Source of the DNA: Unio delphinus
Taxonomy: Eukaryota; Mollusca; Bivalvia; Unionida; Unionidae
DNA: 64,000 bases
NCBI GenBank assembly: GCA_029339505.1
Contig: JAQISU010000343.1
Coordinates: 744,001-808,000 of the forward strand
Direction of reading: 5' to 3'
The position numbers were made by a program, and so were the translations under genes. The notes under the pieces are model-generated. The model searched no databases. It saw only the letters and a list, made by a program, of their open reading frames with translations, and was not told the DNA's origin. The stretch's first letter is position 1; each line of letters begins with the position of its first letter. Positions 46,901 through 51,909 of this stretch are shown in pieces.

Positions 46901-49900
46901 TAGTGTCTGCCTCAGATACGGGAGGTCATGGGTTCAGTCCTCTGCCAAATCATACCAAAGGCTTATAAAAATGGTACTAACAGCTGCCTCGCTTGGCACT
47001 CAGCATTAAGAGGTTAATGTGACTAGGTGGGACATCATGCTACATGTCTGCTGCATGATGCACCACTATAAACTCCCACACTGCAGACATCATAGTAATA
47101 TAACTGAAATTTTTAAAGCTATGTTTAAAATTCAAATCACAAACACATCATTTATGTCCAATCTGTCTGTGCTTTCATACACTTATGTAACAATGTAACT
47201 ATTACCGAATGGCTAAAGCGCTGTCTGTTACGGATCACTGCCATTTCACCTCTGCGTTTGTTTGAGTCTCATATTTGGCTAATGTAGTTATGTGAGAAAG
47301 CTTGCCAGTATCTTCTCATGGGTCGGTGGTTCTTCCGGGTTCTTCCTCCATCATTAATACTATCCTCCATGTATAGCCTATTGGTGCTGAAAGATGGCGT
47401 TAAACCCTAAAACAACAACAACAACAACAAGCGGTGAGATCTTACTGCATTAATTACATCAGTTCAGGCCGTACCGTAAGCATTGATCTTTACAATAATG
47501 GATCCTTGTAGTTTACATGATGAAGCTTTCAAGTGCAGCTCAACTCTTTGCATTCACAGTTGTCCTTTTATAGTTTGAATAAATAGTAGCAGATTTAAGT
47601 CCATTAAGAAGTTACCTGGAAATTTACGTGTATCTTACGTGTACTCTAACATTCAATTTTGCACTTAATACAAGCTACTGAGCATGAGCTTTTCTTAGTT
47701 GCATGTCAATGTTTCACCATTTTCTCAGTGGGAATGACTATTGTGCCAGATCAGTTCTTTCCTGTTAATCCTTATTCCCCAGCATGAGTCACACCATGTA
47801 GAAGCTAAGCTTAATTTACAAAGACTCAGTTCCCTGCATGAGCCACTCCAGGTAGAAGTGAACAGTTTGATTTGCAAGTCTTCACTCTCGGTATATGTCA
47901 CTCAATATAGAGGTAAACAGTTGCCCACTACAATTCCCCGATTACAAGTCACTCCATGTAGAGGCAAACTGTCATTTACAAGGACTACTTTCCCATGTAA
48001 AAGGCAACCCATTAGAAGTAAACAGTTTAATTTGCAAGGAGTCACTCCCCCAGTACAAGTCGCTTCATATAGAGGTAAACAGTTTCAAATTGTTTTGCAA
48101 AGAAATATCGCCCTGTACGAGTCGTTCCATTTAGAGGCAAATAGTTTGATTTGCATGGACTTGCTTCCCTTGAATGAGTCACTCAATGTAGAGGTAGAAA
48201 CATTGATTTGCAGGGACTTAATGCCCTGCATGAGTCACTCATTGTAGAGGTAGAAACATTGATTTGCAGGGACTTAATGCCCTACATGAGTCACTCAGTG
48301 TAGAGGTAGAAACATTGATTTGCAAGGACTTAATGCCCTGCATGAGTCACTCAATGTAGAGGTAGTTTGATTTGCAAGGACTTGATGCCCTGCACGAGTC
48401 ACTCAATGTAGAGGTAGTTTGATTTGCAAGGACTTGTTCCCCTGCACGAGTCACTCAATGTAGAGGTAGTTTGATTTGCAAGGACTTAATGCCCTGCACG
48501 AGTCACTCAATGTAGAGGTAGTTTGATTTACAAGGACTTAATGCCCTGCATGAGTCACTCAATGTAGAGGTAGTTTGATTTGCAAGGACTTAATGCCCTG
48601 CATGAGTCACTCAATGTAGAGGTAGTTTGATTTGCAAGGACTTAATGCCCTGCATGAGTCACTCAATGTAGAGGTAGTTTGATTTGCAAGGACTTAATGC
48701 CCTGCATGAGTCACTCAATGTAGAGGTAGTTTGATTTACAAGGACTTGATGCCCTGCATGAGTCACTCAATGTAGAGGTAGTTTGATTTGCAAAGACTTA
48801 ATGCCCTGCATGAGTCACTCAATGTAGAGATAGTTTGATTTGCAAGGACTTAATGCCCTGCACGAGTCACTCAATGTAGAGGTAGTTTGATTTACAAGGA
48901 CTTAATGCCCTGCATGAGTCACTCAATGTAGAGGTAGTTTGATTTGCAAGGACTTAATGCCCTGCATGAGTCACTCAATGTAGAGGTAGTTTGATTTGCA
49001 AGGACTTGTTTCGTGCATAATTAATTCAGTGTAGAGGTAGGCACATTGATTTGCAAGGACTTGTTCCCCTGCATGAGTCACTCAATGTAGATGTAGACAG
49101 TAACAGTAATCAGTAGCAAGTTAATCTAGAAATGTGAATTTTTTTTGTATCAAGGTCTTGAAAACTCTAATCCTTCAATTTGTATTTCTGCTCCAGTTCT
49201 TTGAGGTTCTTACAGAATTTGTATGGTTCTCTTATACTTATAGTTGATAACTTATAATATCATTTTATATATGTTTGCAGGTATTTACAAGTCTGCATCT
49301 TATTCTGTCACTTTTACAGATGTGTTAAAATTAAATGTTATCAGTAAAGTGCAATATTTCTATCTGTCTTTGGTCTGATTTTTTTAGGCTCTATATTCAA
49401 AAAACTAAATGCCATTCTACTATATAATTCTTCATGTTATTCAAGGAAATTTATCATATATACATTTGTGTTCATTTTGTAGCAAATTGATGACACAAGC
49501 TGAAAGACTTCAACTTTCTGCTATATGCCAAGGTTTACAAAAGAATTTTTTCCAACTACTGTCATCAGTTCCATAAAAAATGATCACTTTTATAAATGTA
49601 AGCTTAATTCATTAAAAATTTTTCTTATGTTTTTATAACCAACAGGCAGCTGTCCCATTCCCTTCTATGAGTTCAGAAGACACAATGGGGAATTATGAGG
49701 ACCTGGATGGACAAGTTGATGACTCCAATCTTTCCCACTCCTTTGATGACACAGGTGAGCGAACTGAAGAAAGTAACGATGGTGAGGAAGGCCAGGCATC
49801 TCAGGATCCAAAGAAAGGTATATTGCATTCCCTTCATTTTCCTATTCAGTCATTGATTGGGACAAAAATATACTGAAGTCAGAAATCATTGTGGAAAAGT

Positions 49901-51909: not shown

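Follow-up and report, generated by a model that had tools for sequence, protein, structure and literature searches.

The SMARCE1 (BAF57) gene of the bivalve Unio delphinus encodes a protein with a pair of ZEB-type zinc fingers behind its acidic tail, and the same arrangement recurs among bivalves and heterobranch snails. This is a new architecture of a known subunit, and it is real, old and conserved. The stretch of DNA analysed here, which we call the window, is 64,000 nucleotides long (C359:744001-808000) and belongs to a 2.5-Gb genome; a sequence-only reading of it had proposed the fused protein, and that central claim stands. We consider it probable that exon 15 of SMARCE1 is an old copy of the exon for the last two fingers of ZEB/zfh-1, and that splicing adds through it a reader of CACCT or E-box sites to the BAF complex. 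DNA binding by the fingers, targeting of the complex and use of the exon in Unio delphinus are what we infer from sequence.

Within the open-licence PMC literature, searched by titles and the starts of abstracts, we found no description of a fusion between SMARCE1 and ZEB fingers. Sequence databases already contain such proteins, named 'SMARCE1-like' with finger domains, so the fused sequences themselves are already available, although this literature apparently contains no account of the architecture.

The finger exon within the SMARCE1 gene

The SMARCE1 exons were ordered by tblastn with a protein of Sinanodonta woodiana (P0002), and their boundaries were checked by splicing and translation (Table 1). 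GT donors and AG acceptors lie at the expected places across all 16 coding exons of the gene, which extends over 85 kb and whose last exon lies 36 kb downstream of the finger exon, beyond the window end. The spliced sequence is free of stops in three forms, with exon 15 included, skipped, or shortened at an internal donor. Exon 13 could end at either of two donors, after 44369 or 27 nt further on after 44396; both preserve the frame and correspond to two Sinanodonta isoforms (P0003 and P0002, respectively). The HMG box is present, exons 4 and 5 being 100% and 95.7% identical to P0002, whose own box is assigned to PF00505 by Pfam (8.3e-18); core domain and coiled coil lie between the box and the tail, in exons 9-11. 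No second SMARCE1 copy was found, as SMARCE1-specific matches among those listed from the best 70 of 19,028 candidates fell on C359 only.

Table 1. Coding exons of SMARCE1 and the candidate internal donor, in window positions.
Feature	Position	Strand	Basis
Exon 1, coding part from ATG	3171..3216	+	tblastn of Sinanodonta P0002; splice sites and translation
Exon 2	4685..4725	+	tblastn of P0002; splicing and translation
Exon 3	9984..10067	+	tblastn of P0002; splicing and translation
Exon 4, HMG box begins	14852..14932	+	tblastn of P0002; splicing and translation
Exon 5, HMG box	17737..17868	+	tblastn of P0002; splicing and translation
Exon 6	25586..25661	+	tblastn of P0002; splicing and translation
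Exon 7	29652..29728	+	tblastn of P0002; splicing and translation
Exon 8	32802..32859	+	tblastn of P0002; splicing and translation
Exon 9, core domain	34675..34847	+	tblastn of P0002; splicing and translation
Exon 10, coiled coil	39234..39335	+	tblastn of P0002; splicing and translation
Exon 11, coiled coil	40752..40994	+	tblastn of P0002; splicing and translation
Exon 12	41686..41778	+	tblastn of P0002; splicing and translation
Exon 13	44331..44396	+	tblastn of P0002; splicing and translation
Exon 14, acidic tail, phase 1 at end	49646..49817	+	tblastn of P0002; splicing and translation
Exon 15, ZEB-type finger pair, 267 nt, phase 1-1	51643..51909	+	Pfam, tblastn, splicing and translation
Internal GT of exon 15 (LHSG/GTGAGAAG), in finger linker	51733..51734	+	candidate donor leaving one finger in frame
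Exon 16, final, ends IENE-stop	88133-88326 (C359:832133-832326), outside window	+	tblastn of P0002; splicing and translation

The proposed in-frame join of the acidic tail to the finger exon is present with both of its splice sites. Exon 14, which the sequence-only reading numbered 15 and which is the fourteenth when only coding exons are counted, has its donor (CCAAAGAAAG followed by GTATAT) after 49817, in phase 1; the acceptor of the finger exon (CATTTTAG followed by GTTCTG) lies before 51643, and the join translates to DPKK-G-SGPRPYVCDVC. The 3' boundary at 51909 is followed by GTAAGA. In the product of exon 15 a C2H2 finger is connected by an HSGEKPF linker to a C2HC-like finger that contains HSGSYSQHM, and Pfam matches it to zf-C2H2 and zf-H2C2_2; protein similarity, helix residues and the finger tree agree with its initial description as closely like the last two fingers of ZEB. 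Because P0002 aligns along the full length of the joined query (which ran from exon 4 and omitted exon 7) at 92% identity, the junction is more than chance, and the finger exon alone is 97.8% identical to the Sinanodonta protein. With SMARCE1 exon 16 found downstream and the frame open throughout, exon 15 is internal to SMARCE1.

The introns of the gene hold further elements. A hAT-type transposase piece (PF05699, 2e-21) occupies window positions 23347-23979 in intron 5, and an open piece ahead of it (22354-23181) matched no Pfam family. Large minisatellites occur at 62424-63977 (37 bp unit) and 10686-12382 (59 bp), with others at 48142-49096 (52 bp unit) and 42358-42842 (25 bp unit).

Conservation of the fingers and a proposed reader

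Among 17 aligned proteins, chosen because they bear fingers, mean pairwise identity is 0.755 for the finger pair and 0.788 for the HMG box, with 0.281 for the flanking tail before the fingers and 0.224 after them. Helix residues were counted, unforced, on ungapped proteins with two fingers (n = 25). His/His/Glu at helix positions 2/3/6 of the first finger, together with HSGSYSQ in the second, occur in 24 of these SMARCE1 proteins, the exception being P0039. The finger search listed 120 proteins, 116 of which have the matching ZEB last pair. Position -1 of the first finger is His in all 116 ZEB pairs; the 24 SMARCE1 pairs have His (12), Leu (7) or Gln (5) there, and since the residue in the window is Leu, DNA specificity may have shifted relative to ZEB. 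The last zinc ligand in most pairs is apparently a cysteine at a varying distance. An AlphaFold model of the Sinanodonta protein, built with an alignment, shows two beta-beta-alpha fingers (block pLDDT 80-88) between disordered tails (pLDDT under 50), while single-sequence prediction was poor, with a mean pLDDT of 57.4 for a sequence including 31 residues of intron read-through.

We propose that exon 15 of SMARCE1 is an ancient copy of the ZEB/zfh-1 exon for the last two fingers, perhaps duplicated out of a ZEB gene that shared its chromosome, and that splicing would decide whether the finger pair is present in the BAF complex. With exon 15 in, the remodeller would gain a built-in reader of CACCT(G) or E-box-like half-sites, tethered flexibly through the acidic tail, and could be brought to, or retained at, ZEB's own target sites; with exon 15 out, the product would be ordinary BAF57. 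The conserved helix residues are consistent with such putative targeting of BAF to E-box-like sites, and a role of SMARCE1 as sequence reader is likely. Against it, one finger pair alone may be a weak binder, since ZEB binds with two clusters. Possible too, though a little short of probable in our view, is that this was an ancient splicing invention of lophotrochozoans, in which a core BAF subunit would be its own sequence-specific transcription factor, supplying a ZEB-like CACCT reader in selected tissues, with recruitment by ZEB bypassed.

A different role for the fused protein has some claim to attention. C2H2 finger pairs can mediate protein or RNA contact, and this general capacity, along with a residue at position -1 of the first finger that is unlike ZEB in the lineage of the window, would suit fingers that serve such contacts, or merely compete with ZEB, with no steering of the remodeller. 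However, the remaining helix residues are retained in 24 of the 25 two-finger proteins, and ZEB fingers bind CACCT; within each ZEB cluster, CACCT(G) is bound by two fingers (PMC8304685, PMC3795639). We judge contact or competition unlikely on balance, and favour a CACCT reader carried by the remodeller.

Ancestry, distribution and splicing of the finger exon

The sequence-only reading had suggested a search for a ZEB/zfh-1 gene elsewhere in the genome, and one was found on C18, with N-terminal fingers, a homeodomain, a PLDLS motif (recognised by eye) and C-terminal fingers. Its last finger exon is preceded by a phase 1 intron after KYEHSG, at most two residues from the position of the exon 15 start and in the same phase. 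At the protein level, the finger pair of P0020 is 80-85% identical to many ZEB/zfh-1/zag-1 proteins over about 73% of the searched stretch, and a finger tree (50 columns) separates ZEB C-type plus SMARCE1 fingers from ZEB N-type fingers at 100/98. At the DNA level, exon 15 and the C18 exon are 73% identical over 111 coding bases, beyond which only short matches occur (E 0.1 or worse). As the similarity is limited to coding bases, and to 73% there, the copy is old, and a recent copy of the ZEB exon was rejected on the same grounds. The N-terminal cluster, the homeodomain and the first C-terminal finger had no match in C359:714001-838000; with these other ZEB parts absent nearby, the gene of exon 15 encodes not a ZEB protein but one with ZEB-derived fingers only. 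Elsewhere in the assembly, very many clustered C2H2 stretches occur on C12, C144 and C194, with at least 265 matches (150 of 7,410 candidates scored).

Judged informally by eye from contigs of equal length, SMARCE1 and ZEB apparently share a contig in Sinanodonta, in Tegillarca, where their gene numbers are ten apart, and in Littorina, Tubulanus and a sand fly (P0117/P0152); the two genes are on separate contigs in Lymnaea, Ephemera and the present assembly (C359 and C18). Local duplication of an exon out of a linked ZEB gene is a plausible source of the fingers. A linked gene would equally be an available donor if the fingers had been gained independently in several lineages or kept ZEB-like by gene conversion. 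The SMARCE1 fingers are indeed scattered in the free finger tree, where they form no single clade and require four changes, at least two of them imposed by starred branches, and P0018 falls with vertebrate ZEB on a starred branch. Yet a single clade of SMARCE1 fingers, and so one origin, is not rejected (AU p 0.147, from 50 columns only), and in the bivalves compared the point at which the fingers follow the tail is roughly the same. Repeated gain or conversion seems to us doubtful, slightly more so than a role in contact, and a single old copy remains the origin that we prefer.

The distribution among relatives was drawn from a search with the joined protein (1,491 proteins matched, best 120 examined) and a profile search (1,206, best 120 examined). 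We compared 283 proteins, counting on ungapped sequences, and classed 162 as SMARCE1-like by motif. C2H2 patterns occur in 29 of the 162: a ZEB-type pair in 24, a single finger in four (unionid P0003-P0006) and an unrelated pair in one (P0039). The named finger bearers among the matches listed, namely Sinanodonta, Potamilus (one finger), Crassostrea, Pinctada, Mytilus, Mya, Elysia and Lymnaea, are bivalves and heterobranch snails. Fingerless among the matches listed are caenogastropods (Babylonia, Nucella, Batillaria (partial), Littorina), the bivalve Tegillarca, the heterobranchs Bulinus, Candidula, Arion and Bradybaena, the annelids Owenia, Capitella and Ridgeia, the nemertean Tubulanus, insects and vertebrates; these are predictions, in which absence of fingers is weak evidence. 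The comparison with other molluscs and annelids that had been called for accordingly yielded fused proteins in bivalves and heterobranchs, and annelid proteins listed without fingers.

A quick tree of the SMARCE1 core, weak at depth (bivalves are not one group and no branch sets the arthropod outgroup apart), places finger-bearing P0243 with the nemertean Tubulanus (99) and finger-bearing P0018 with the annelid Owenia (85, branch not starred). This suggests finger-bearing SMARCE1 in a nemertean and in another lophotrochozoan as well, and by virtue of these groupings the fusion may predate molluscs. The nemertean-like P0243 lacks most of the HMG box and retains the fingers. P0039, from a 2,634-nt lgn contig, groups by its SMARCE1 part with the ark clam Tegillarca and ends in a non-ZEB C2H2 pair, perhaps a second independent gain of fingers. 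Two further contigs encode fused full-length proteins, P0020 (a 702-aa frame in 2,670 nt, ENA) and P0033 (an 804-aa frame in 3,440 nt, JGI); because the gene here takes 85 kb in 16 coding exons, these look like spliced messages, and less likely processed copies.

Exon 15 is symmetric (267 nt, phase 1-1), and the form that skips it translates through. In C. virginica, LOC111103115 has a predicted isoform with fingers (X8) and one without (X6), with flanks common to both and an additional difference of six residues (ESASEE) ahead of the junction. P0014 and P0038, from contigs equal in size, have identical flanks and fingers in one only, and P0017 (Mytilus coruscus) and P0042 (species not given) show the same kind of difference. 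Isoforms predicted for oysters and other species thus have the flanks in common and either include or lack the finger exon, which is probably optional; most of these isoforms of relatives are genome predictions. Unionid P0003-P0006 join LHSG directly to EDPES, a form that fits the donor GTGAGAAG at 51733 and shortens the exon to 90 nt, again in phase 1-1. In heterobranch snails the fingers lie close to the protein end and fingerless forms have different ends, so in these snails it may serve as an alternative terminal exon. The early suggestion of an alternative 3' isoform seems borne out in part: predicted bivalve isoforms do differ by the finger exon, and an alternative end may apply to heterobranchs.

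Fingerless predicted isoforms, and the caenogastropod, annelid, insect and vertebrate proteins without fingers among the matches listed, would also be expected if exon 15 were a rarely used, noisy splice product without function, but in the 17 bearers chosen for their fingers the pair is nearly as well kept as the HMG box (0.755 and 0.788) while its neighbours decay, and we hold this to be improbable. Least credible of all, and rejected, is a separate ZEB-like gene overlapping or nested with SMARCE1, akin to the downstream gene first envisaged: the fingers are ZEB-type and the next SMARCE1 exon lies past the window, which by itself leaves room for such a gene, but SMARCE1 exons stand on both sides, ZEB pieces match the finger exon and no other in the 124 kb of C359:714001-838000, and relatives encode the joined protein.

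Relation to known systems

It is still debated how general chromatin remodellers reach their sites, and recruitment by separate transcription factors is the usual answer. Here evolution has seemingly fused a reader to the remodelling machine, apparently under the control of splicing, and the fusion has been kept in bivalves and snails, lineages long separated. The two natural oyster isoforms would allow a direct look at the contribution of a sequence-specific module to BAF targeting.

SMARCE1/BAF57 is known in Drosophila as BAP111/dalao. The protein described here shares with SMARCE1/BAF57 the HMG box, core domain, coiled coil and acidic tail, and its match to the SMARCE1 chain in PDB 6lth_Q (411 aa) covers P0002 8-406 only, ending before the fingers. 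With C-terminal fingers 2 and 3 of ZEB1/ZEB2, zfh-1 and zag-1 it has in common the linker, helix residues, exon start and phase; unlike ZEB, it has no N-terminal cluster, homeodomain or first C-terminal finger near SMARCE1, and ZEB is a separate gene on C18. In vertebrates, ZEB1 binds BRG1 (PMC13033632, citing Sanchez-Tillo 2010). That pairing resembles the present one in coupling DNA reading of the ZEB kind to SWI/SNF, but there two proteins interact, whereas here both parts are encoded on one polypeptide.
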